Below are positions 16,586-64,000 of a stretch of DNA of 64,000 bases, one piece after another (position 1 is the first letter of the stretch; each line of letters begins with the position of its first letter). Under the pieces are notes generated by a model. It was not told the DNA's origin. It ran no database searches and saw only the letters and a program-made list of their open reading frames with translations. This DNA comes from Struthio camelus (Eukaryota; Chordata; Aves; Struthioniformes; Struthionidae): positions 6,200,001 to 6,264,000 of the forward strand of contig NC_090964.1 in NCBI RefSeq assembly GCF_040807025.1, read 5' to 3'. The position numbers were made by a program, and so were the translations under genes.

Positions 16586-19558
16586 GCGGCGTCCCTTAGC
16601 AGTTGAGATCAGCTGAGGGGACATTTGCTGCCAGCGCAGGAGGGAGGCCCGGGGGGTCTCGGCTCCTTCAGTCCGTGTCGCTCCCCAGCAGAGCCGGGGG
16701 TCGTGCAGGGCCCGAAACGTGGCCAGAAGGGGCTTGGCATGCAGGGGATGGCTGGAGGGGGCAGCGCGGAGCCTCTCGGGGAGCTGCCACGGGGATTTTG
16801 GCATCCCTAGGGAGGCAGCAACCTGAGGACATTTAAAAAGACTGAGAAGGCAAAATTGCAGCGTCACCAACAGAGTAGTAGTATCGGCTGGGTGAATCCC
16901 GCAGATGGTCCCTGTGTCCGGCCAGCATCGCCCCAGCCCTCCTGGCCACGGGCTCGGGGCACGTACAGTGCGACCAGGCCCCCGCAGCCTGAGCTCCCTT
17001 TGCACCCGCATTCAGCAATGGGGTCTTTGGTCCCCCCGGTCCGGCGGAGGTTTAATCTGAGGGCTGCTTGCCGGGGATCAGCTTCGGAGCAGCCCTGCCT
17101 GGCCCTGGGAGAGTTTCGCCCTTGGCTCCTGGGTGCACGGGGTTGTTTCTCAGCGCCCCAGTCCTCCCTTGGTGCATGGGGATCTCTCCAGCGTCGCCTT
17201 TTCAGGGAGAGGAGCCAGAGGCTAAAACTCAGGGTTTGCCAGAGCAGGAGACGGGGGCTGCGCTTCAACCCAGGGCTTGGCTAAAGGGCTCCGGGGGGGC
17301 AAAAACCAGGGGGTTTGTGAGCGGCTGCTCAGGGCGATTCTGTCCTGGGCTGTATGGGGGTGTGCAGGGGGGGTTACGGGGCAGGGGACCCTGCAGACCC
17401 ACTGGGGTGAGCCCAGCTCCCTCTCCTGTGCGCCCCTAGGTGGGACTTTATGGGGGGGGGCGGACGGTGGGGACGGGGGGCCTGAGGTGGGTGGCTGTCA
17501 CTGGGCACCTGCTGTCACCCTCTCTCCTGTCCTCAGCAAAGGTCAGGCAGGGCTCGGGGGATCTGGGTTGGGGAAGGAGGGTGCCGGCGCCCCGAGGGGT
17601 GGGGGCTGCTCTGGGGCCCGATGGTCTCAGCCCAATGGTCTCAGCTAGGACTGGACGGGGAGGGGGGATTGGGAGCAGCCGATCGGGTTGCAGAAAAAGG
17701 CCTTTCTGAGGCCTGTGAAAATGACCGCCCGTGGGGGCTTCCTTGAGGCTGGGAGAACAGGCAGGGCTGCAGGGCCCGGAGGTGGCCTGGGGGGAGAGAT
17801 GGAGGAGGCCCGAGGGATTTGGGGAGTCCTGGGGGGGGGGGTCGGCAGGCTGGGGATGCTGTCCCTGATCCCGACCTCACTTATCCCTGCGGGAACCCGT
17901 GGCAGAGCAGTGGCGCGTTTCCTTACCAGCCTGCTGCCACGATGTTTTCAGCGTCTCTGCGTGGCTCCTCGGCTGCGGCTGTGCGAGCGCGGCCGCCCCG
18001 CTGCCCCCCAGCCCAGGCCGGCCCCCCCTTTGGCATTCACCGCGTGCCTTAATTGTGTGACATTAAATCAAGGTCCGCGGTGAACACGAAACGCTGGGGC
18101 CGATGGCTGAGGGCGTGCAGCGGGGTCCCGGTGTCCCTGCTCTGTCCCCTGCCCCCGTTACCGCCCCATGCTGAGACCAGGGTCTGCCCCGTCCCCCCAC
18201 CCCGAGGCTGCCCCTGATGTAGGGCAGCGCGCTATAGCCGGGAGGGCAGCCATGGGGACAGGGTGATGCCCCCACACCGGGGGGGCCTCTTCACCTCCCC
18301 AGGGCAGGGAGGGCGACCGGAGATCCCTCCTCTCTGAGCTGGGAGCCCCCAGGGTTGCAAATCCCCCCGTCCATCCTTCCTGGCTGCTCGGCAGCATTAG
18401 GGGCAGGATTAGTGTCAGAGCCTCTGCTGCCTCCCAGCCCGGGGCTGCGGGGAGGGCACGGGCCCTGCTCTCCGTGGCGCTGGGCGGGCAGCAGGGTTTA
18501 GCGCCGCAGGAAGGGCAGATTATCCCTGGGAGTGCGACTGGGCAGACAACTGAACCGCGGCCGATTATGGATGGGTGGGCTCCCTTCATCTCTTGTCCCT
18601 GTAGATAGATCAGATGCACCTGACTCCTCCGCCCCAGCCCAATCCTTAGGGTGTTACCGTACGAGCCCTGCAAGATCCTCCCTTCTCCGATTTGAATTCC
18701 TGCACAGACTCTCCTGAGAGCCCCTCTCCTCTCTGCCCCAGAGCTCAGCCCCATAGAGAAGGGCCACGGGCCTGGGGGGTGGGTCTGGGGGCAGAGGGGG
18801 CTGCAGGGAGCCGCAATGCCGATGCCCCTCCAGATCTGGCCCCATCTGGCATCTTTCAGGCCTGGCTCTGAGGCTGCTGCTCAGCCCCGAGCAGAGGACC
18901 TGTCCCAAAGCACTGGGGCAGCTATTTTTGAATGAGATAATAAGCAAATCCCCCTTATCCCCCCCTCCCGGCTGTCCTTGCCTCCCCCGGCTTTTGTCAA
19001 GCAATCGGCACCCTCAGAGCCATGGAAACCCGGGGGGGGGGGTGCACATCTTCCTACCGGCTTAAACTCTCCAGTGGATCAATCTGGGAGGGATTAGGGG
19101 GGGATTTGGGGGCTGCTTCGTAGTAGTGGAATGGGGAGGTGCTGCATCAGGAAGCAGAAGCGAGGCAAGTTGGGGGGTGCATTCAAGCATTTTTTGAAAC
19201 TTGGGTCATAGAGGAGTAGGAAAGGGGATGGGGGGGGGGGAAAGCTCCCTGTATGGGTCTCTGAGAAAACCCCACCTGCTCTACTTCTGCAACGAAATAA
19301 ATGTCAGAATAATCAAAATGACAGAAATCACCTCAAATCCCCCTCCGGTAGCTTGGACCCCCTCACCCTCACCTTTCTGGCCGGGACTTGTTTCTGAACA
19401 GCAACAGACACATGAGGGCCAGTGGAGGCCACACAAACTCAGCACAGGTAATTCCCACTCCACCCCCCACCCCAGCCCTTGCCTGCCACCGGGCCCGACC
19501 TGCCCCATCCCCTCCCGGGGGGGCCGCAGCTCAATGGGTGCTGGAGAGGTGCGGGGGC

Positions 19559-28273: not shown

Positions 28274-28429
28274 GCTGTGCCCCCCCCCACCTTGTCCTGT
28301 TCGGTCTCATGGGTGCAGCCACAGGGACAGTGTGAGGACCCTGCTCGGGCTTGTTCCACGGCAGGGGGGCGGTGAGCTGGGGGCTGGTGGTCCCAGGGCC
28401 AGTGGGGAACTGGGGCTGGTGGTCCAGGG

Positions 28430-28860
28430 AGCTGGTGGGGCACAGGGGGCTGGTGGTCTCGGGGGGTTCAGTGGTCCTGGAGGCTGGTGGGGCACAGGGG
28501 GCTGGTGGTCTAGGGAGGCTCAGTGGTCCAGGAGTCTGGTGGGGCACAGGGGGCTGGTGGTCTGGAGGGGGGTTCAGTGGTCCAGGAGTCTGGTGGGGCA
28601 CAGGGGGCTAGTGGTCTAGGGAGGCTCAGTGGTCCAGGAGTCTGGTGGGGCACAGGGGGCTGGTGGTCTGGAGGGGGGTTCAGTGGTCCAGGAGTCTGGT
28701 GGGGCGCAGGGGGCTGGTGGTCTCGGGGGGGTTCAGTGGTCCAGGAGTCTGGTGGGGCACAGGGGGATGGTGGTCTAGGGAGGCTCATTGGTCCAGGAGT
28801 CTGGTGGGGCACAGGGGGCTGGTGGTCTGGGGGGGTTCAGTGGTCCAGGGGCTGGTGGCC
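28430..28860. repeat. Minisatellite, about 8 units of 52-54 bp
   Basis: The anchor 'ggtggggcacagggggctgg' recurs at intervals of 52, 52, 54, 52, 54, 53 and 52 bases. Units alternate between two variants: one with 'tctagggaggctcag' and one with a G-run followed by 'ttcag'. The alternation suggests dimer (about 106 bp) duplication. One strand is strongly G-rich. Long open frames through it are by-products of unit length and lack of stop codons. It begins just past the MSRA-like poly(A) site. Confidence 0.9.
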
Positions 28861-29039
28861 CCGGGGGGTTGGTGGCTGGGGCTCCGGCGGGGCGGTCCCA
28901 CCGCCGGCCGGCAGGGGGCAGTGCCGAGCCCCGCGGCGCCTCCGCCCGCCAGGGGGCAGCAGCGGCTCAGGCAGGCACGGCGTGCGCATACGGGGACTTA
29001 CGGCACGGGCAGGGAATGCGTGCGCCCACAGGTACTTAC

Positions 29040-40989: not shown

Positions 40990-41515
40990 ATGAAAGCCAT
41001 CAGCCCGGTTCGATCCGTGAGGAGCTGCTACGAGGCCGTGTGCTGCCTCTCGGACCAGAGCCTGGCCATCGCCCGGGGCAGCAACAACAAGAGCCCGGCG
41101 CTGGAGGAGCCCATGAACCTGCTCTACGACATGAACGACTGCTACTCCAAGCTGCGGGAGCTGGTGCCGGGCATCCCGCAAGGCACCAAGATGAGCCAAG
41201 TGGAGATCCTCCAGCACGTCATCGACTACATCTTCGACCTGCAGATCGTGCTGGAGGAAGAGGCCAAGGGCCGCGACCCTTCCTCCGAGGCCACCTTGCT
41301 GTCCCTCAAGGTAAGGGCTGCTCGGGGCCGGGGCGTGCGCGGCGAGGGCCCTGCACGGTGCGGACGGGTTTGGGGTGTGTCGGAAGGGGGGGAGGGAAGG
41401 GGACCCCCCCCCCCCCCGCTGCCGAGGCGGCCCTGACCCCTCTCCGCGCTCCCCGCAGGCAGCCGAGCTCGCCTCTGAACTCTGCTCCAAAGACGAGAGA
41501 AGTTTGTGTCACTAA
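40990..41515 (+). CDS. ID3: Inhibitor of DNA binding 3 (HLH protein)
   Basis: Dominant-negative helix-loop-helix protein that pairs with class I bHLH (E) proteins and blocks their DNA binding, delaying differentiation. Coding exons are 40990-41310 and 41459-41515, joined in phase 0 (AAG/gtaagg, gcag/GCA), giving 125 residues. The start has a strong Kozak context (gccaccATG). The N-terminus [10 protein letters not shown] and the [13 protein letters not shown] block are ID-typical. The helix-loop-helix spans about residues 44-89 ([13 protein letters not shown], loop, [15 protein letters not shown]). No basic region precedes it, as expected. The C-terminus ends SKDERSLCH, like ID3 orthologues and unlike ID1, ID2 or ID4. 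A 3'UTR exon begins near 41679 after an intron that starts 15 bases past the stop codon. Neighbouring E2F2 on the same strand supports orthology. Confidence 0.96.
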
Positions 41516-47310: not shown

Positions 47311-48104
47311 GCAGCCCTTGCGCTCCAGCCAGTCCTTTGGCTTCCGCTTTCCCACGGGTGATGTCAGGGCTCGGGTCCCCGGCCCGCAGGGGGAACAATA
47401 ACGCGCCGCCCGCGCTGCTTCCCCAAACGCAGCCCCCGGGTCGGCGGGGGGCTCACCAGCCCCGGCCGTGCCCCCGGCAGCCTCGCCGAAAAAGAGATGG
47501 AGGGGATTTGCACCCTCTTACGATGCCCGCGGGGAAGAGCCGGGTGCAAGTGCCAGAGGGGCTTTGCCCGTGGCAGATAGGGGCTCAGCGGCGGGGGATC
47601 GCTCCCGCAGCCCGGCCAGCCCCAGACGCCAGCGTGGGGTGACACGGGCGCGCGGGGACGGGCCGGTCTCACCTGCGCCCTGGTGGAGACTTCTTCGTAG
47701 CGGGGGATCTCTGCCAGGACGCGGCCGGCTGCTCCCACCGGCTGCCAGGTGCCGGGGTGACGTCCCCGCCAAGGGGGCTGCCCCCCCCCCACCTTCTGCT
47801 CTGCTCAGCTGCCTGCTGGCATGTCTCGACTCTGCTAGTTCTCTGCGCCGCTGTGGTCCTGGAGGAGCAGCACAGGTAGGAAGGTAGAGGGGACCGGGTG
47901 GGTGTCTGCTGGGATGGGAGGCAGGGAGGGGACGGCAGGGGAGGGTGCAGCGGGCTCCCGGGGCTGCTGGGGGTAGGTGCCGGCTGGCGGAGGGGGCTGC
48001 AGGCCCTGCGGGTGTTCAGTGGGGCTGGATCGGGACCAGTCCCTCATCCACCTCCGCTGGGTGAGACCCAGAAAACTGGGGCCAGGGGGGTGCACAACGG
48101 GTTT

Positions 48105-48150
48105 TGGGTACCTGATCTCCATCTGTGCCTCGGTTTCCCCGTCTCCGGGG
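48105..48150 (-). repeat. MIR/CORE-SINE fragment
   Basis: 'ctgtgcctcggtttccccgt' is the reverse complement of the MIR core. Confidence 0.5.
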
Positions 48151-48523
48151 GGGCGGTGGTGGCAGCCTCCGGTTGCACCCGTCGCGGGGGGCCCTGCACT
48201 GTTTAATTCTTCTCTCTGGGAAGCAAACCAGCACAGAGGAAGGCGCAGCTGGGATAACTGGTAACAGTCCCACCATGCTACTGGTCCGGACTGGGACCTG
48301 GAGAGCCGGGCAGGTGTAGTGCTGTCCCTCCTCCTTTCCCCTGGCAGCACCGGGGTGCGAAGCCACCCGTGTCCCCCCCCGGTTTCCAACCAGAGCCAGA
48401 CCAGCGTCAGGCCCCGGGTGCCGGGTGCTGCCGAATTTCCCCCTGCCCTCCGCAACCCCCCTCCCGGCCCTTCCGCCCTCCCTCCTTCCCCCCGCCAGGC
48501 TCCCCCATGGCGGGGGGATGCAG

Positions 48524-48608
48524 TGATGTCACAGGGCAGGGAAGGGTGATGTCAAAGAGCACGGAAGGGTGATGTCACACGTTCCGGAGGCTTGGAACGA
48601 TGAGGTCA
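48524..48608 (+). promoter_or_regulatory. CATSPER4 promoter with triplicated CRE-like site
   Basis: TGATGTCA occurs three times at 48524, 48547 and 48570, exactly 23 bases apart and inside a longer shared unit, with a related TGAGGTCA at 48601. TGATGTCA differs from the cAMP-response element TGACGTCA by one CpG-to-TpG change and is bound by CREB/ATF/CREM-type factors. The array lies 40-140 bases before the candidate start codons. CREM drives many post-meiotic germ-cell genes, so testis-specific CREM control is a reasonable inference. No TATA box is evident. Confidence 0.6.
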
Positions 48609-48645
48609 CAGCAGCCCAGGTACCCTGGGGTGGGCCGGGGGGGGG

Positions 48646-51600
48646 ATGCCCGGCAGCGCCGAGATGGCCTCGCCACTGAAGAGCAGGCGGGTGAGGGGGT
48701 CCACGGCCGGCGGGCGCCCGCGGGCCAGGGCTTCGCCCGGGGCGGCGGGTGGGGTGGGGGGGGACGACAGAGCGGGGGGGTGTTCGGAGGGGCGGGAGGC
48801 GGCGCGGGGCTGCCAGGACCCAGCTGACGGCCTGTCCCCCGCCGCCGCCAGCACAACCAGGACGCGGCCGTGGAGTCGCAGCATTTGCCCATCAGCTACA
48901 GAGACGTGGTGCGCAGCGAGGTAGGGCAGGGGGCCGGCGGCGGCGGGGCGCTCCGCTCCGGGGAGGGGGTGCTCAGCCCGCCCCGGGCACCGCTCTCACC
49001 CTGCGTCCCGCCGCCAGGACCTCTGGGACCGGGAGGAACAGCTCTGCAACGTGCGCGCCGGTCGCTTCCTCGCCCACCCGGCTTTCAGGTTCGCCGTGGC
49101 CGGGCTGGTCATGGTCAACGCGGTGGTGATCGCCAGCCAGGCGATACCGCGGTTCAGGGCGGTGAGTTGGGCCGCCGGGCTGGCCGGCGGCGGCCCCTGC
49201 GCTCGGCGCTGTACGTGTGCCGTGTCCCTCCCCTCTCCTCTGGCCCTGGGCGGCCTTTCCTGTACATGTGTGACCCCCCCTCGCTCCCCCCCTCCCCGGG
49301 CACCTTCACCTGGTGGAGAGATGCCCCGGTGCTGCTCCTTCCCTGGGAGATTCATGCCCGGGGAGGACAGAGCGAGCTGGGGGGATCCCCGTGGACATAG
49401 CTGGTGGCGGCGTGACTCCATCTGTACTAGCCACCAGCGAATCCACAGAGCTCGCCTTCGCCGGGTCTGTCCCGTGGGGGACGGCTCCTTTTGGCATCCG
49501 TAGTCCCCCGGCATCAGGGTAACTTGCATTAGAAAAGACTTGTTGAGCTCCATCCACCTGGGAACGTCTGGGTCCTCGAAGCATCGCTGGAGGGAGAGGA
49601 AGGGGGGGAAGAGGCGAGACACCCCCCCCCCCCCGGTGCCATTTGTCCTCAGTTGCTGGTGGCATTTTTAACCCCCCCCACAGGCTGCAAACCCCAATGG
49701 GAGCAGCTAGAAATGGCAAAACAGCGCTGCTGGACCCAGCTGGGGTGGGAAAGCGGGGGGGGCGGTTTGGGCGACGAGATTTTATATTTTGCACCCCATG
49801 TGGGCCCTGCGCGAGAACCTGTGAGCGCGGAGCACAGCTCGTCCCCGCTCTGGCAGGTGAGCGACACGTGTCCCTCCCTCTCCCCGGGCCAGGACCGGCT
49901 CCCCCGCGATGCTCTTCAGTGCTTGTCTCTGTCCTCTCTCCAGATCTACTTTTTGCTGAGCACTGCCATAAACAACGTCGTGCTGGTCGTCCTCTTCTTT
50001 GAGGTCCTGCTCAACTGGTACAGAGGTTTCTGGCTCTACTGGAAGGTGAGCGAGCCCAGCCGGAGGCCTGCAGCATCCCTGTGTTCCCGCGGGCCCGCAT
50101 CCCTGCGTCCCTGCATCCCTGTGTCCCTGCATCCCTGTATCCCGTGGCCGCTCACACGTCCCCTCCTCGCTGCGGGCGTCCCAGCATCCAGCCGGCCCGT
50201 GCGCGCTCCCACCTCTGCCACGGGTCTCCGGAAGCCCTCGCTGCTGCTTGGGAGGACAGAGAAACTGAGGCAGGGCGAGGGGACAGGGATGCGGCCCTGG
50301 GCCCAGCAGGGCTGAGCCGGGCTCTCCCAGCTGCGGCTCGATGCTGCCGTCTCCAGGGGAAGAGGAGGAAGAGGCCGCGTTTAAAAACCGGCTCTGTGGC
50401 CGCACGGTTGAAGCGTCGCGTGCTTTTATCACGGTTAACGCGGCAAAAAGCTGGACTCCTGGGCCCTGTTCTCATGCCCCTGTGCTGTCCAGGGGCTGGT
50501 GACGTCCCCTCTGGGGCTTGCCCTCCCCAGGAGAGACCAGGACCTTCCCCAGGGCCACCAGCCCCCGTGGGCAGATGCTTGGCTGCTGGACCGCTGTAGC
50601 CGATGGCTAGTAGCCCTGCTCGCCCAGTGGCCCACGACCTGCTGGATGAGCCCCCTCCAGCCCAGGCCTGACCCCCTGGGCCATGAGGCAGACCCACTGG
50701 GGGGCAAATCGACTATTTGCAGCCCCCTCTGCTGATCCCCGCTGTGGATATTGCTGGAGGAGGTTGAACCGTGGGGGAAGAAACGGCTCAGGTCATTTGG
50801 GGTCCTGCTCCTGCTCCTTTGGGTGTTTTTTTTGGGGGGGGCAGGTCCCTGTGGCTGCAGCCAGCGATTCAGACCCACCTGCCCTTTGCGCACGGTGCTG
50901 CACAACCGTGGAGTTCAGGCCCCTCTTCCTCTCCCCACAGGATGGCTGGAACATCTTCAACTTTTTCATCATGGTCTACCTGCTCATCGGGCCCCTCATC
51001 CCCCAGCTCAATGACCAGAAGATTTTCCACATCCTGAGGTGAGCGAGGGAAGGGGGCAGACTCCCCTAAAGCCTCCAGCTTCCCCGGTTTGGCCTGAACT
51101 GGCGCCTTGCTTCCCCGAGACGGGGTGCCTCTGTCCTGTCCACTGCTGTGCCAGATCCCGGATGTGCACTGAGGAGAAGTGAGGTCCCTTCTCCCTGGGC
51201 AGCCAGGGGAGTGTGGGGAAACTGAGGCATGGGGGAGGGATTTGCCCAAAGCCAGCAACGAGCCAAGGAAGCCCCACAACTTCTAAATTCCCTTGTTTGG
51301 ACACGCAGCATCAGCTGTGACGCTCCTTTTCCACTGAGGCTGCAAGCCAGAGATGCTGAGGAGGATGTCCTCTCATCTCTTGCTCTTCACTGTCACTTTT
51401 TTGAGCTGGTTTGGGGAGCCCCACTGGCAGTGCAGAACCTCCCCCAAACCCTCACAGAAGAGGCAGGGAGGGAACCCAGGCGTCCTGGCTCTTTCCTCCC
51501 CCCACCATCAGCGAGGCGACGGGAGCTCTCACCTTGCCCCAGGGTGATGAGGCTGCTGCAGGTCTGCATGCTGGTCAAGGGGCTGGCGAGGATGATTCGG

Positions 51601-54600
51601 GTGATCTTCAAGGCCATCCCCAACCTACTCAACATCATGTTCCTGCTCTTTATCCTCATGCTGGTAAGCTGCCTGCTTCCCCAAGGAAATGCCCACCCGG
51701 CAGTGGGTGTGGGAGCAGGCAGGTGAGTGTTAGCCCAGGGCCCTCTGGGAAGCACCTTGGCCTTGGCCAATGGGATCCAGTGTTGACTGAGCTCTGGGCC
51801 CCATGACCGGTGTGCTTGGCAAAACCCTCCTCATGTCAGGCTAATCAAGGAGTATAACCACCCTCCACCTTCTCCCTTGCCCTTGTCTTGCGCTAGGGCT
51901 GCGGGTTGGAAGATGCTGAGCATCCTTCCCGGCGTAGCCTGGCAAGGGGATGGTGGAGGTGGGACCCCACTATTGCTGTCTCTTTGCAGGTCTTCTCAAT
52001 GCTTGGTGTCATCCTCTTTGGCAACATTGTCCCAGCCCACTTTGGCAACCTGGGGAAGGCCCTGTATTCGCTCTTTGTCTGCATCACACAGGATGGCTGG
52101 CTGAACATCTACCAGGCCTTCGAGTGAGTGAGCAAGCCCTGATCCCTTTGCAGGGCTCTCAGCCATCAGAGCCACTGCAAGGGGTGGACAGGAAGCCCTG
52201 GACATGGGCTCTGGGCTGGGGCAGAGCTGGGGTCCCCCCTTACCCTGGGGAAAGAGGGAGGACTGGGTGGGATGTGGGTATGTGGAGGTAAAGTGAGGGC
52301 TCCTTTTCCATGGATGCTGAGAGAGACTCCATGCTTGGACAGTTGCCAGCACCACCCCTGAACCAGATTATCCCTGTTCCCGGCAGGAAAGAAGGGCACG
52401 CTGTGAAAATAGGAGGTGCCATTTACTTCCTAATCTTCCTCACGGGCGGGACCTTCATCTGTGCCAACCTGCTGGTGGCCGTGGTGATGTCGAGTCTGGA
52501 GGAATCTTTGATCGCCCATGAAAAGGAGGAGGAGAAGGAGCGGGTGGCCAGCCTGGCTGCTCAGCCCAGCCTGGAGGTAAGCTGGCCATGGGGCCAGGTG
52601 CCCAGGGCAGGCCGGCTCTGTGGGCATCCTCAGCCAAGGATGGGGCTAGTATGGGCAGAAAACATGCATCAAAACCACCCTGGAAGGACCGCGTTTTGGT
52701 GGTTCCCTATAAAAAGATCTCCCTGGGCAGCCAAACTAGGGAGCTGTAGTCAGGGTTGCCTCCCATGCCCAATCTCTCCCTAAGGGGAGCTCCTCCACCC
52801 GACTGTCCCCATCCTGTTCTTCTCGTCTTCTCCAAGAGCAGGGAGTGTGGGAACACCCTGGGCACCACTTTGCAGTGCATGATCATTTATTTTGGAGCCT
52901 CTGTGGGATATGAGGGAAAATTTCCCCTGCTCAAAGGGAGCTTTGATCCCCCATGGGCTAGCTTGGAGGCACATCCAGCCCCAACACGATTTCTCATATG
53001 TCAGAGGGCAGGGTGGGAGTGGGGATTTGGGGTTGATGGTTGTCTCCCTCTCTGGGGGACACTGAGATGAGAGGTGTGGTTTGGGAGGAAGAAAGGTGCA
53101 TTGCCAGGGGGAGACATGGTCCTTCAGGGAGCTGAGGTGTACTGAGAGGAGAAGGCTTCAGACTGTAGTTCCCATGGGGCTGTGTCCCAGGAGGAGAAAC
53201 ACTCTTAAGTGTTGAATTCACTGCACCTGAGGGACCAGCTGATGGAGCAAAGCTGCTGGGACCAGACAGATTGCACTTCTGTCTTACCGTCATTGGTTCA
53301 TTTGTTCCTCCCCAGCCAAAAACTAGGAGAATTTTAGTAAAATGGAGGTTTCTTATGCAAAACGTCAGTGGGAAAAGGGGAGAAGGGGAAAAAGTGAATT
53401 TTTTCAAAATAGTTTGCAGCTGGCTTTAGTTGTAACTGCACTTTGCACCTGCCATCAGCATTTGAAGGCCTGGATTTTTGTCTCCATTGTGCTGGACCCC
53501 AGGCTTGGGTTAATGACAACAGAGGGAGGGCTGGTCCTTGCATGCAGCCCATCAGGTGTGTAAGGACCTCCTGGGTGGGTGCTTCCCCTGGCAAAGGTGA
53601 GCGGATGTGGCTGCATTGACGTGCTTAACCCTTTCAGCTGGTCAGCAGGGATGTTGGCATGGACTCTGAGCTCAGCCTGACACACCCGAAAGCAGTGATG
53701 TGGGACAAGGCCTCTGTGCACAACTTCCAGGAGCCGTTCACCTACAACAGCCTGGTCAACATGAGAAAGAAGGCCTTTGATGATTTCTGTCCCCTCTTGC
53801 AATCTATCCAGGAGAACCTCAGACACTACAAGGAGATCCGTGAAGAGCTCAACACGTGAGGCCAACTACAAAACTCCTTCCTCTTTGCTGGCTTGGTCAT
53901 AGGCTGGATTAGGTAGAATCAGCCCATTTACACATGGCCAAGGCAAAATAACCCCCTTTCCAGGGAGATCTGTCCCAGAGAGGCTTTCTTTTCAGTTGTG
54001 GGTAGAAGCTGACAGCTGCCACCTATCTGGACAGGGAGATACCACCCTTCAGGTTCTGGCACAGCAGAGGACTTTATTGGTGGAAAGCCATGGCTATAAA
54101 GTCTGGAGAAGGCCTTTTCTGCAGGTGTTAGGTAATACAGCTCTTGTCTAGAAGGAGAAAACTGGAGAGAGGTTGTCCTCTTGGGTGAAGTCCATGGCCT
54201 TGCTGTCTGTCTGGGTGGACAGTGGTCAGAGACATCATTTCTGCTAGGAAACCTAAGACTACCTCGAGTCTTCCATTGGGTGAAACCACCCACCAGCCTC
54301 CATGCGTGGTGGTCATTTTGGACACTTCTCCATTGATGGAGACCTCCCAGCTCCTGTCATGCACCTGCCCATGGGTACCAGCCTTTCTCTTCTGTCACTG
54401 AGCTGATTTCACATCTCCATCGCCACCACCCCACGTGATTCATGGGACGTGGCCACTCTATAGAGGAAAGCTGTAGGCTGGAGGGTGGTGGAGCAGAGCT
54501 TCTGGGCTAGCAGATCTTGGGGGCTGTAGCATGAACAGGAAAAGCAAGAGATGCCCCCTCTTCTCATGGTAGCATTTCAAAGGGCAGATCCCTCCAGCCA

Positions 54601-55982
54601 AGGGAAAGCCTTTTCTCCCATGAATTTCAGTGAGGTCAGGCTTCAGTCGTCTGCTGGCTGCAGCATCACTTGTGTCCGCACTGTAGGCTCAAACATGCTT
54701 CACACACATCCGCCAGCCACATGAGAGTGGCCACAGCACAGGCTGAGCACTACTGTTGGTAGCTGAGCAACATCTGGTTGCCTGGGCAGTAGCACGCTTC
54801 GTCCTTCAGACTTCACCAACGAATCCTTCACCCTGGGCCAAGACTCAGAGCATCCTGGTGCTGTCCTCTTCCCAGCTTGGCCTAGGCTGGCTTCTTGTCA
54901 AGCTGGCTGCGATGCTCTCGTACCTCCTTCCTGGGGAGGGCTGGCTTGCAGGGAAGAGAGAGTTGGATGGTGGGACTGACGAGTGATGGGCTCGCTGATA
55001 GGTGATGGGCTGTGGCAGAGGCAGAAGGTGGACGTAGTCATTGGGGGAAGCTCGCTGCTAATTCCTCCCTTGGTTGTGCCTCCCAGGATAGTCGAGGAGG
55101 TGAGGTCCATTGAATTCAACCACGCACAAGAGCAAGACCTGATTCTGCGGAACCTCCTGAATAGCTTGGATAACCCTCAGTCCAGCCATCGGTGAGGTGT
55201 GGGGACGTGCTCTCCACTCTTGTCACACTGGGGGAGGTAGGGGCTAGGTCTGCCATCCGCAGCCCGCCGAGGCTGGGCCCTCCGTGCTCTCGACCAGCAC
55301 CACACCAGCCCTGTCCCTGGACAGAGGCATCACTCCACTGAAGGCAGCCAAAGGCAGTGGGACGACACTCATTTATCCACCCCGTAAGGCACTGCATCGT
55401 CTCTGTGTGCTGAAACGGAGACAGCAGTTGCCTTCTCCCTGTAGGTGAGAGAAAAAGGTCTGTTGTGGACTGAGCTGCCAAGCGCAGCTGAGCTCCTGGC
55501 TTTCAGACACAGCACCCAGCTGGGCCCGCAGGGTTTACTGCTCATGCTGAGTTGCGCTACGAGGCTTTTCATTTGGCCTCAACCCTCCTGGCCCTGCTTG
55601 AGAGCTAGGGGAAGTGAGGCATGGCTCAGTGCTGAGGTTGTAGGAAGGGGAAAAGTTTTTGCACAGTTACAGGCAAAAATTTGTCCTGAGTCAGGGGCCA
55701 CTGGCAAATTTTTGGGTGTCTCCCAAACTAAGTTAGGACCTGGAAGCCCAGCTTGACTGGGACCTGATGCCTGTCTCTGTGTCCCCTCGCTGGGCACCTT
55801 GCACATCAGAAGCCGTGGTGCTGGCATGTGTGAGTGTCTGTCCGTGTGTGTCTTCCAGGAGGTCTCTTTACAGCAAACTCCATCTCCACACCCAAACGCC
55901 CCTCGTCCCCAGCCTGGATGTGGCACCGTCTCATGCTAGAGTAGGGCAAACTGGAAGGGGACCAAGGCCTCAGCAGGATTAA
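48646..55982 (+). CDS. CATSPER4: Cation channel sperm-associated protein 4
   Basis: Pore-forming alpha subunit of the CatSper calcium channel of the sperm flagellum. Exons: 48646-48690, 48852-48920, 49018-49161, 49944-50045, 50941-51038, 51543-51663, 51990-52123, 52387-52576, 53638-53855, 55087-55191 and 55859-55982. All are GT-AG with consistent phases, giving about 449 residues (human 472). S1 is at about 57-80, S2 88-112, S3 from DGWNIFNF (121), S4 about 150-175 with spaced Arg/Lys, S5 178-207. The pore filter TQDGW is at 226-230 and S6 at 246-272. A C-terminal coiled-coil segment (QENLRHYKEIREEL, then IVEEVRSIEFN) matches CatSper4 best. Alternative starts are 48646 and 48664 (better Kozak). 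The final exon is the least certain: see 56164. The channel works only with CatSper1-3 and auxiliary subunits, which are not in this window. Confidence 0.92.
50081..50150. repeat. Short tandem repeat, gcatccctg-type
   Basis: Imperfect repeats of 'gcatccctgtgtccct' in CATSPER4 intron 4. Confidence 0.7.
51185..51300 (+). repeat. MIR copy in CATSPER4 intron 5
   Basis: 'tgtggggaaactgaggcatg' is followed by 'gatttgcccaaagccagcaa', in the order and spacing of MIR (core, then CTTGCCCAAGGTCACACAGC). One of the clearest MIR copies here. Confidence 0.7.
51460..51505 (+). repeat. MIR 3' fragment
   Basis: 'gggaacccaggcgtcctggc' matches the MIR 3' block; probably the tail of the copy starting at 51185 or of a neighbour. 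Confidence 0.55.
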
Positions 55983-56163
55983 ATTGTGGCTCAGCCCTGT
56001 GGCTGTGGAGACCTTGTACTGGTCCCAGTAGGTCCCTGAGCTCCCCTCACCCAGAGATTTGCCACTGCCTTAGTGCTTTCTGCCACCGCTGCATCCCAAA
56101 ATACTCCAGCAGCCAAAGTGGGCATCTTTCACACGGCCCTCCTTTCTCCCTTTCCTTCTCCAG

Positions 56164-56280
56164 GCAAACGTGATTGACCCCGAGGACATGCAGGACAGGC
56201 TGTGCCGCAAAGGGGCCGTGAAGACGGGCTGGCTGAGAGCCCCACGCCAGGTGTACCAGCCTGCACCCTTCCCGCCGTAG
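56164..56280 (+). CDS. CATSPER4: Alternative or additional last exon of CATSPER4
   Basis: A good acceptor (ccttctccag) precedes a 38-codon open frame with a normal amino-acid mix (begins ANVIDPEDMQ, ends QPAPFPP, then TAG). It is in phase only if exon 11 ends early at 55940, where 'aga/gtaggg' offers a donor; joined directly to exon 10 it would stop after three codons. So two ends are possible: exon 11 reading through to 55982, or exon 11 (55859-55940) plus this exon. The C-termini of CatSper4 proteins are not conserved, so homology does not decide. Confidence 0.35.
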   Translation, partial: ANVIDPEDMQDRLCRKGAVKTGWLRAPRQVYQPAPFPP

Positions 56281-57150
56281 CCACCCCGAGCCGCTGGGGA
56301 GCACGGTGCAGACCTGTCCCCAGCCCAGAGCGCACAGCCCGGAGGACAGGACGTGACGGTGTAGGAAAGGAGAAGAGGTGCCCAGCTCCAAGGGCAGCAT
56401 GTCCTTCTGTCCCAGGCCCCCCGTGTGAGATGCCAGGATGGATGGAGGATGCAGAACGGCACCAGGGCAGGTTGGGCTTTTGCTTGCAGAGGGGCACAAT
56501 CCCCTTTCCGGCAGCAGGCAATGACGTAGCGACCTGTGTCCCAGAGGAGGCTGGGAGAGGATCAGAGAAGGCAAATCCATCGCCCTGTCCTGAGAGATGT
56601 CCCTGGCTGCTGAGCCTTTCTCCAGGACAGCCTGGCTGGACACTGCAAGCTCCCTCCCTGCTGGGACGTAGCGGGGCGATTAGGGTGAAAACGTAGAGCT
56701 TTGGGATCTTGGGGCCAAACCCTCTCATGCCCGAGTCGCTCTCGAGCCCGCTGCCCGTCGCGCAGCTCCGTCCCTGGCTGCGGAGGGCGTTTGCTGCCAG
56801 ACAGGATTTGAGTAGAGGGCTCCGAACTGTTTTTCTCCCAAACGGATGCAAACCCCAGCTGGCCCTGACAGTAACCCTGCAGTTCTCCACAACCTACCGG
56901 ACATCAGATAAATTTGGGTGTGTGTGTGTTGGGGGAGGGGGGTGTATTATTTGGGGAGGGGGGGAGCTGCAGCCCACAGGCTGCAGCTGTGGGGCTTTCC
57001 TTGCCAAAAAATAAACCCGAATCCCAGTCGCGGTTGCAGTCACAGTCGCCGTCCCAGTAATCACCAGCAAGGCCCCGGCCCCAGCCCGGAGGGGGTCCAA
57101 TCTGCCCCGCCACCGCCACCGCCACCGCGCTTTAGCAGGAGCAGGTGGTG
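56281..57150. other. CATSPER4-E2F2 intergenic gap
   Basis: About 0.9 kb with no recognised exon. It contains a T/G-rich 'tgtgtgtgtgttggggg' stretch (56918-56934), an AATAAA at about 57009-57014 that could serve a long CATSPER4 3'UTR, and short GTCGC-like repeats (57020-57060). Confidence 0.45.
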
Positions 57151-57878: not shown

Positions 57879-60800
57879 ATGCTGCGGCTCCCCAGGGGAG
57901 TGTCCCCCGGCGCGGGGAGGGGGGGCGCCGCCCTCCCGCCCCACCAGCAGCAGCAGCAGCACCACCAGAAGAAGGCCGTGTCGGTGATGGGCTCCGCCGA
58001 GCGGGTGGCCTCCAGCCTGGGTAGCCCCTCGGTGGCCTCTGTCCCCGGCGGCTGCTTCACGCAGGTCTACTCGCAGGCGGCTGTCAGCGTCCCCGCACCC
58101 CGGGGTGGCTGCCTCTACGCCACCCCGCAGGGCCCCGAGCTCAGGAGCATCCGATCGGCCTCTGCGGGAAGGCTGCCGGTAAGGTGTCTTCACCCCCTCC
58201 CTCCCCGATCCTGTCTTTGCACCCATTTTTTGTGAGTCTGGGGTCTCCGGGCCGCTCTGGCCCTTTGCAGGGAGGGGAGCTGGCGGCGAGGCCCGAGGAG
58301 CAGGGCTGGACCATGTCCAAGACGCGCAGCCGTCCCTGGGTTTGGGGCCGCGGCGGGGGTCTGCACCCCAAAAGGTGTTTCTTTGCTCCGCCGGCTGCGC
58401 GGGGGGGAGGGTAAGGTTTGAAATCAGAAGTCTCAGTGAAATGGCTCATACGTTTCTCAACTTCCCTTAGCCCGTGCGGGCCCGCAAAGCCGGCTCCGCT
58501 CTTCCTCTTTTCTTATTTTTCTTTCTCTCTCCCTTTCTCTCTCTCGCTTGCAAAGAGTTTGGGCTGTGCCTCAAGCTCAGGCCGCGGAGCCGAGGCCCTT
58601 GCGAGCTCCTTTTCGCCGTAAGGAAGCGAAGGCTGCGTGCCGGCACCATCCCTGCCCTGCGTTGGAGGGGGGCACCTTCGCTGCCCCGCTAGCACCCCTG
58701 TTTTGGGTTGCAGCCCCCAAGGCGACCCGTCACCCGAGGAGCCTCAGGGGCTGCTGGTGGGGGACAAGGGCCAGGGGCAGTTCAGCTTCGCTGCCCGGGC
58801 TTGTTTCCTGCCTGGGCAGGGTTGTGATATGAGATATTAGGGGGCAGAGTGGGGCCTGAAATGTGTTTGCTGGGGGGGGGGATTGCAGTGGAAATGGTCC
58901 CCTCGCCCTCTGGGATGCCTCATGGCTTTGAACGAGGGACCCTGGTGCATGGGCAGAGAGAGCTGGGCTGGCAGGGTGGGAGATGTGCTGGGACGGTGTT
59001 TTGGGGGGACAAGGGGATTGCTGACAGCTGAATTTGGCTGCGCCCCTGTCAGCGTGATGCTGGCGACGTTTGGGGCGAGGGCTGCGCTTGCAAAGCCTCG
59101 GAGCCCGCCGGTCTAAAGAGGAAACTGGGAAACTGGAGCCCAGACAGCTTGCCCGGGGTCTGGGCTGGGGATGGGGCAGGGGCTGCCTCGGGGGGGCCGT
59201 GCCGGGCTGTGCCGCTTTCCCAGCGGGCTCGGACCCGATCCGGGCAGAACCGCGACATTGCCCGGATCGAGGGGCAGCAGCTTAACGCCGCCGATGCCGG
59301 GGCTCAGCCATTCGGACGCCGGCCCGTGGCTTTTGCCAAGCGTCGGGGAGCGTGAGCGGCTTTTCCCGGCCTGGGCCTTCCTTCTGGAGGGCCCCCGCTG
59401 AGCCAGGCAGCCCCGCTGGCAGCTGGGGCTGGCATTTAATTCCTGCCTGCCCGGCGCCTGGGCGCGTGTCCAGCCCTCACTGTGAGCCTCTGTTCTCCCC
59501 AGGTCCTGGGAGGCATCCCAGCGCGCTGTAACTTCGATTAGTTTTTAAAAGCTTGATTGATCGATTTATTCCCCCTTCCCGCGGCTGCTGCTGCTCCGTG
59601 CCAGGTGGGGACGTCGCCGGGGAGCAGCGGTCCCTCGGCTCGCCCTCTCCGCGCCGGGGGCGGCCAGGGCTGGCGGATGCCGGGCTGGCCCGGGACGTTG
59701 CGCTCCGCGCGGCCCCTGGCCGGCAGGGCGCTGGGGCCACCTGTCTCCTCTTGGCCCTCGGGAGCTGCTCTGGGCCGTCTTTGTCTTAGAGCTGCGCGAG
59801 ACGTCGCTTCCCGCGCTGCCGGGGCTGTTGTGTAAGGAAAGACCTGTGCTGCTTCCCGCTCCCATGAAAACACGCCCCGGATCCCCATTAACACCCGCGC
59901 TTTTTTTGAGCATGGTGGCGGAGCTCATCTGGGGTTCTGATGTTGCAAACCAGGGGGGTGTTTCTGTGCTGTTGGTTACGGCCCCTCCGGAGGTCCCGTC
60001 TCGCCCTCCCAGCCGAGGCCTTCAGAGCTCTTAGTTTTCCAGTCCCCAGTGACTCTATGACGCCAGGCCGGGTCTCCAGGGGTGATCCCAGGGGACCCCA
60101 GGAGCCGTGGGCAGCTGCGATGTCGAGGTTGCCGAACGCTGGCTTTGGGATGCGACTGCAAAGCTGGGTGGGAGGGGGTGGGAGGCGGCAGAGGGGTGGG
60201 TGGCATGGGTGACTGCAGCAGTGGCCCACGACAGGTCCCTTCGTGTGACCCCGTCCCATCCGAGTCCCAACGCTGGGGATACCGCGTTCAATCCTGACTC
60301 GCCGAGCTGCCGCTCGGAGCGGCGCCCCGCGTCCGTTCAGGCCCTCTCGCCCTGCGCCTTCGCCGGCGCAACCTTTGGGTGTGCAGATCTGGGGCGATCA
60401 GATAATGAACGTTTCCAGCCGATGACTCCCGGGCAGGGCAATTGCAGCCGCTCCCACCTGCTTGCGGGATTCGCGCGATACCAGGCGGCAGGAAAAGGTC
60501 GCAACGAATCCAGGGTCACCGGCTGCAGCCGCCTGGCCCGGCCGTGGGAGAGGACCCGTTCCCGGCGCGCCATCCTCGCGTCCCTCCGTGGGAAAGCGGG
60601 CTGGGTTGTCGCACAAAGGCTCCGCGGCGGGGCCCGTTTCCAACGCGGTGGCCTGGGGCGATGCCGTCCCCAGGGTGCCGGCAGGGAAACATCGAGGGGT
60701 TTTCTATGTGGGCGGGATGGGTGGTTTTGGGGGGTCGTGGTGGGCACGGCTTTACCGGCGGGCGCATCGGGATGGGTGCCGGGGTGGTGTCTACCCCATC

Positions 60801-63800: not shown

Positions 63801-63915
63801 CTGCTCCAGGCCAAGCGGAAGCTGGATCTGGAGGGTCCCGGCCAGCCGTGCCACCCCGAGTTTCGCACGCCCAAGGGCAAGGGCAGGACCCTGGCCCAGG
63901 TCCCCAGCCCGAGGA
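57879..63915 (+). CDS. E2F2: Transcription factor E2F2, first two coding exons (partial)
   Basis: Activator E2F that pairs with DP proteins, binds S-phase gene promoters and is held in check by RB. Exon 1 is 57879-58178 (100 codons, ending RLP/gtaagg). Exon 2 is 63810-63915 (begins AKRKLDLEG, ends in phase 1 before gtaagt). The ATG at 57879 matches the E2F2 N-terminus pattern (MLR-P-G), although the frame is open further upstream. CLYATPQGPE and AGRLPAKRKLDLEG are E2F2-like; KRKLDL (residues 102-107) is the cyclin A-binding/nuclear-localisation motif. The DNA-binding, dimerisation, marked-box and RB-binding domains lie beyond the right edge. A QQQQQHHQ run near residue 22 is absent from human E2F2. 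The intron between the exons is 5.6 kb. Confidence 0.93.
58179..63809 (+). other. E2F2 intron 1
   Basis: A GC-rich intron with no recognised nested gene. A 538-codon minus-strand open frame (61898-63514) and a 366-codon plus-strand frame (60107-61207) run through it but overlap other open frames and show no domains. Two MIR scraps are present (near 59.11-59.16 kb and 62.28 kb). The intron ends in a strong polypyrimidine tract before the exon 2 acceptor. Confidence 0.6.
62274..62305 (-). repeat. MIR/CORE-SINE fragment
   Basis: 'cgtgcctcagtttccccctc' is the reverse complement of the MIR core. Confidence 0.5.
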
Positions 63916-64000
63916 GTAAGTGGTGCTGGGCTGAGATGGGGAGGAAAGCAGGTGGGGGGCTTGGGAGCCCCATTTCTCTCCCCTATAAAGCTGCTGGTCT

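Follow-up and report, generated by a model that had tools for sequence, protein, structure and literature searches.

A CATSPER4 gene with an open channel region between ID3 and E2F2 in a ratite-type bird genome

The older view, as worded in 2008, was that CatSper is "lacking in Aves" (PMC2572835). According to the available text of PMC4290089, bird evidence for CATSPERB was found only in a ratite. Two papers of 2019 went further: CATSPER4 is kept in ratites and the loss of CatSper is assigned to Neognathae (PMC6679542, BMC Genomics), and CatSper is reported in the kiwi Apteryx australis and the tinamou Tinamus guttatus (PMC6660944, Zoological Letters). A 2024 paper gives CatSper4 in 3 birds and 23 reptiles and, in the part of its text available, CatSper1 as missing in birds (PMC11289002).

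Here we describe CATSPER4 in a stretch of 64,000 nucleotides (the window, C23:6200001-6264000 of an assembly of 1,451,902,618 bases in 262 contigs); positions given without a contig are those of the window. We read this feature, with high confidence on the strength of its sequence, as the CATSPER4 of a palaeognath ratite-type bird, most likely working as in mammals. The preliminary description of the window had given CatSper as reported lost from birds. This applies to chicken and zebra finch, in which CatSper genes are missing or fragmentary (PMC6679542), but not to ratites, which are reported to keep CATSPER4, and CATSPER4 is open here. As CatSper in palaeognaths was already in print in the two 2019 papers, one of which names CATSPER4 in ratites, the presence of CATSPER4 in this genome is not new and was mostly to be expected; the fresh details are its address between ID3 and E2F2 and the intronless partner gene CATSPERD.

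Exon map, reading frame and promoter region of CATSPER4

CATSPER4 is a multi-exon gene on the + strand, with its ATG at 48646 and a span of 48646-56280. The exons were first joined by hand and then compared with the output of a purpose-written splice-aware aligner, which was blind to them and was given the mouse CatSper4 letters from the PDB match against window positions 48001-57000. The names of the segments S1-S6 were assigned to the exons by eye.

48646..48690, + strand: exon 1; ATG at 48646, open frame and GT donor; the mouse alignment starts further C-terminal
48852..48920, + strand: exon 2; the spliced alignment of mouse CatSper4 begins within it; donor in common
49018..49161, + strand: exon 3; N-terminal part and S1; hand joining and spliced alignment
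49944..50045, + strand: exon 4; S2 region; hand joining and spliced alignment
50941..51038, + strand: exon 5; S3 region; hand joining and spliced alignment
51543..51663, + strand: exon 6; S4 and start of S5; hand joining and spliced alignment
51990..52123, + strand: exon 7; S5, pore helix and TQDGW filter; spliced alignment and tree alignment
52387..52576, + strand: exon 8; S6 and start of the C-terminal tail; the spliced alignment stops at 52543
53638..53855, + strand: exon 9; start of the coiled-coil region; hand joining and spliced alignment
55087..55191, + strand: exon 10; coiled-coil region; TGA at 55193-55195 is an alternative stop if unspliced
55859..55940, + strand: exon 11, provisional; needed for the frame into the last exon; weak donor
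56164..56280, + strand: exon 12, provisional; ends in the stop codon TAG; no relevant PDB match

The spliced alignment with mouse CatSper4 scored 734.6, with 167 of 351 positions identical and neither frameshift nor stop. The reverse complement scored 61.5, all 30 block shuffles at most 94.8, and all ten other pieces, obtained by cutting window 1-45000 into five and taking each on both strands, at most 68.6. Unspliced, 6 of the 11 matches in the window overrun their exon ends into stops. The top PDB match of the protein is mouse CatSper4 (E 4.2e-93), and Pfam Ion_trans (PF00520) was found at 113.2 bits against a cut-off of 25, as a single domain with voltage sensor and pore. The TQDGW filter, at residue 226, is identical to that of mouse CatSper4, and the tail aligns to the mouse protein through the coiled-coil region, up to residue 395. 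The voltage sensor, filter and coiled coil noticed in the preliminary description thus all have their counterpart in the mouse protein.

The alignment recovered the splice boundaries of exons 2-10 independently, apart from three points: it begins within exon 2, it stops within exon 10, and it closes exon 8 at 52543, where the hand-joined exon runs to 52576. Because of this last difference, the 3' boundary of exon 8 is less certain. Eleven phase-consistent exons had been proposed for the gene; the boundaries of exons 2-10 were borne out, but a model of eleven exons that ends at 56280 loses the frame and was rejected, since exon 10 (end 55191) joined directly to 56164-56280 reaches a TGA. The frame is restored by a twelfth exon at 55859-55940, which gives a protein of 474 aa ending at 56280. 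It should be noted that the donor of this exon scores 0.1 on a rough score of our own, the lowest of eleven (the other ten score 2.4-6.1). If exon 10 is left unspliced, the in-frame TGA at 55193-55195, just past its donor, gives a protein of 409 aa. The predicted protein would therefore end either after 474 aa, by way of the twelfth exon, or at the stop ending at 55195, after exon 10. A PDB search with the C-terminal 92 residues returned nothing CatSper-like for the part past exon 10, only two irrelevant weak matches. Because the tail ends differ by splicing choice, the earlier wording "apparently complete" is fair for the channel and the coiled-coil region, which carry no stop or frameshift, but not for the tail past exon 10, which lacks homology support. 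A single-sequence structure model of the protein (mean pLDDT 49.7) was too poor for use.

CRE-like sites lie upstream of the gene: TGATGTCA at 48524, 48547 and 48570, and TGAGGTCA at 48601. These make four TGANGTCA sites in 85 bp (48524..48608, +), 38-122 bp upstream of the ATG. The first three sit in a 23-bp tandem repeat (region from 48523) and, because of this repeat, are not independent copies. The densest 90-bp cluster holds 4 sites; among 60 first-order Markov sequences, the corresponding maximum was 1 for 59 of them and 2 for the remaining one. Counted over the whole window, neither motif is unusual: TGAYGTCA occurs 4 times for 1.25 expected (6 of 100 shuffles have at least as many) and TGANGTCA 7 times for 4.37 expected (19 of 100 shuffles have at least as many). 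CREM-tau binds and regulates the Catsper2 promoter in the mouse (PMC9714369), and a table on the Crem knock-out gives Catsper4 a value of -2.07, next to two columns that read "No" (PMC3285179). The cluster is a candidate CREM/ATF promoter element of CATSPER4, and suggests that the gene may be under CREM-type control.

Other CatSper genes and the state of the complex

The pore regions of CATSPER1, CATSPER2 and CATSPER3 are open in this genome, with no stop or frameshift in any of them. The CATSPER1 region (C35:581744-584206) is identical to mouse at 144 of 324 positions and has the filter TLDDW, that of CATSPER2 (C12) at 195 of 365 with TMDHW, and that of CATSPER3 (C13) at 177 of 367 with TVDGW. 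The CATSPER1 alignment covers the pore region, and the outermost pieces of two of the alignments are very short and may be spurious (18 bp at the CATSPER1 end, 9 bp at the CATSPER2 start). One unspliced match each of CATSPER3 and CATSPER2 hit a stop that is absent from the spliced alignments. The CATSPER1 locus runs against the 2024 statement, as found in the available text, that CatSper1 is missing in birds (PMC11289002). Its open pore region is located on a dot-sized chromosome of 1.24 Mb (C35).

Exons of the auxiliary subunits are present as well. CATSPERB gave 5 separate matches on C5 and CATSPERG 6 on C16; one match of each contains a stop which, judged by eye only, lies past a plausible donor. 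The CATSPERD/E C-terminal model hit one more exon, on C3, which we regard as CATSPERE, and EFCAB9 gave 3 separate matches on C13, covering residues 1-154 of a human EFCAB9 query.

CATSPERD has many exons in mammals. Here the one CATSPERD match found in the genome is an intronless open frame of 791 codons (C2:142904645-142907017, - strand), in which Pfam recognises three CATSPERD or CATSPERD/E domains (propeller, Ig-like and C-terminal), and its PDB match is CatSper-delta (E 7.4e-143). AATAAA/ATTAAA signals lie 856 and 880 bases downstream, and there is no run of at least 8 A in 5.2 kb. Neither two family models nor the gene's own protein, searched against the genome, revealed a multi-exon parent; short, diverged exons might nonetheless be missed in this way. 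The simplest reading of this sequence would be a retrocopy that replaced its parent; whether it did so is one of the puzzles raised by this genome. We found no report of CATSPERD as a retrogene or as intronless in the open-licence literature, nor, judging by titles and the starts of abstracts there, of any CatSper retrocopy. The zebra finch CATSPERD is marked as highly partial in PMC6679542, its synteny traced through other species; this marking, as given in the available text of that paper, would be compatible with a moved gene without demonstrating one. To the broader proposal that this ratite has a whole working CatSper, with its delta subunit made from an intronless retrocopy standing wholly in place of a lost multi-exon parent and with CATSPER4 between ID3 and E2F2, we give even chances. 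If it is true, and if the retrocopy predates the split between ratites and other birds, the replacement of CATSPERD would precede the collapse of CatSper in Neognathae.

In a channel working as in mammals, CATSPER4 would be transcribed in late male germ cells, and its protein would join CATSPER1, 2 and 3 in a heterotetramer of non-identical pore subunits. This heterotetramer would sit on the flagellum with beta, gamma, delta, epsilon and EFCAB9, and CATSPER4 would account for a quarter of the T-x-D-x-W filter for calcium in the sperm-tail channel CatSper; expression, assembly and activity as a channel are all predictions here.

The alternative that survives best is a recently dead CATSPER4, with its frame still open but its expression lost, at an early stage of the loss that was finished in other birds. 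Expression is indeed a prediction here, the C-terminal end is uncertain and has a weak donor, and the state of the CatSper genes in chicken and zebra finch cited above would fit such a course. This is nonetheless an unlikely reading: the conserved core is without stop or frameshift, third-position GC of the gene is 0.802, and the open CATSPER1-3 pores and CATSPERD make a long release of the whole complex from selection unlikely. A working CATSPER4 thus remains the reading that we prefer. The CatSper gene addresses given here come from a single chromosome-scale genome of ratite type and make it possible to clone the channel of a bird and to record from it.

Source of the DNA and position of CATSPER4

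The source had been taken at first for a non-avian sauropsid, and the window by itself does not reveal the class. The whole assembly shows it to be a bird, not a reptile. Contigs C1-C39 (lengths seen for 22 of them, from 225.6 Mb for C1 to 0.44 Mb for C39) come first in the numbering, followed by C40 (70.4 Mb) and C41 (89.9 Mb); five later contigs measure 24-116 kb. From the contig order, C1-C39 appear to be the autosomes, and 39 autosome numbers plus ZW make a 2n of 80, as tabulated for ostrich and emu; the same table has 82 for the greater rhea and no entry for the cassowary or the little spotted kiwi (PMC7601716). A scan of 18.0 of the 57.5 kb of one unplaced contig, C262, for signs of a mitochondrial genome detected no tRNA. 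C40 and C41 were compared at one place, where both had the same Ion_trans score: the 601-base samples C40:52015800-52016400 and C41:71546180-71546780 are 100% identical over 598 bp. This part may be pseudoautosomal, or one haplotype may have been copied in the assembly. The DMRT1 part of a joined query was spanned by four matches at C41:9345016-9379195, and none of the 32 matches listed for the query was on C40. Ratite Z and W chromosomes are of similar length and recombine over most of it (PMC7601716); the similar sizes, the shared sequence and DMRT1 on C41 only lead to this ratite Z/W picture. In addition, an alpha-globin match is 84% identical to chicken alpha-A, a weak point, as no reptile globin was in the comparison.

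That the gene is the CATSPER4 of a turtle, crocodilian or lizard is therefore very improbable, even if CatSper4 is reported in as many as 23 reptiles (PMC11289002): in this 1.45-Gb assembly, 39 contigs stand ahead of a W-like and a Z-like one that share the identical segment, and the DMRT1 matches listed are confined to the larger of the two. We rejected a non-avian origin on the ratite-type Z/W pair and the placement of DMRT1. A ratite-type bird with CATSPER4 agrees with the two 2019 papers, in which CatSper was lost within birds and not at their base.

The neighbours of CATSPER4 were located by tblastn with human queries:

40990..41271, + strand: ID3, the part of its coding exon that matches; 71% over 94 columns (E 9e-40)
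57879..58184, + strand: E2F2 coding exon 1, beginning at the ATG and followed as far as the match goes; match weak (27 residues, E 0.006)
63804-63917, then beyond the window to 65996, + strand: further E2F2 exons; strong, best E 3.4e-37

CATSPER4 is located between ID3 and E2F2, as the preliminary description had it, with all three genes on the + strand; ID3 lies 7.4 kb upstream of its ATG, and on the downstream side 1.6 kb separate its last stop from E2F2 exon 1. Neither RPL11 nor TCEA3, searched for as extra neighbours, gave a match at E 0.01 within C23:6180001-6284000. Two other features of the window are a mir-124 precursor at 18025-18095 (- strand; Rfam RF00239, 76.6 bits), about 23 kb from ID3, and a G-rich minisatellite at 28419-28879, with about 8 copies of a 52-bp unit.

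Human CATSPER4 is at 1p36.11, close to CNKSR1, CEP85 and SH3BGRL3, and near STMN1. In the present genome, SH3BGRL3 (7.118 Mb) and STMN1 (7.214 Mb) are on the same chromosome as CATSPER4 (C23), at 0.86 Mb and 0.96 Mb from it, respectively. As SH3BGRL3 is on the same chromosome and 0.86 Mb off, one intrachromosomal rearrangement could separate the two gene orders and explain the human and the present address. CATSPER4 may have moved either in the mammal or in the sauropsid line. Among the open-licence matches listed, no paper joined CATSPER4 and ID3.

Identity of CATSPER4 and comparison with known channels

CATSPER4 is single-copy: 11 of 12 genome matches are at the window locus and the twelfth is CATSPER2. 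A second copy, for example near SH3BGRL3, was sought in the same genome search, which gave none. On the stretch that scored 734.6 with mouse CatSper4, mouse CatSper1, 2 and 3 scored 168.8, 217.7 and 242.8. In a tree of 9 sequences and 239 columns, with that of the mouse as the one known CatSper4, the window protein was grouped with mouse CatSper4 at 99.7 SH-aLRT and 100 UFBoot, and CATSPER1-3 of this genome were each paired with their mouse namesake (99.6-100 SH-aLRT, 99-100 bootstrap). The gene is thus orthologous to mouse Catsper4, and its identification in the preliminary description held. A misread Cav or Nav domain, or one of CATSPER1-3 taken for CATSPER4, has a negligible probability: the Ion_trans fold is common to all these channels and the next family in the PDB, a T-type Cav channel, is a significant match (E 4.1e-47), but both the paralogue scores and the tree place the protein with CatSper4, and CATSPER1, 2 and 3 have separate loci of their own.

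The closest described protein is mouse CatSper4 (PDB 7eeb chain D; 9ubw chain D). The two share a single-domain channel with a TQDGW filter, an S4 with two spaced arginines (LRVxRL) and a conserved coiled-coil region (YKEIREELN-IVEEV-SI-FN). They differ in that identity is 45.6-47.6%, the N-terminus and the residues past exon 10 are not alignable, and the chromosomal neighbours are not the same, those of the mammal being the human ones. The human gene is likewise orthologous, and its neighbours SH3BGRL3 and STMN1 are on the chromosome of CATSPER4 here too, whereas CATSPER4 itself is found between ID3 and E2F2, 0.86 Mb from SH3BGRL3. Finally, the ratite CATSPER4 of PMC6679542 and the kiwi and tinamou CatSper of PMC6660944 represent the same gene or channel in the same bird group; to what the available text of these two papers gives, the present analysis adds the exon map and the ID3-E2F2 address.
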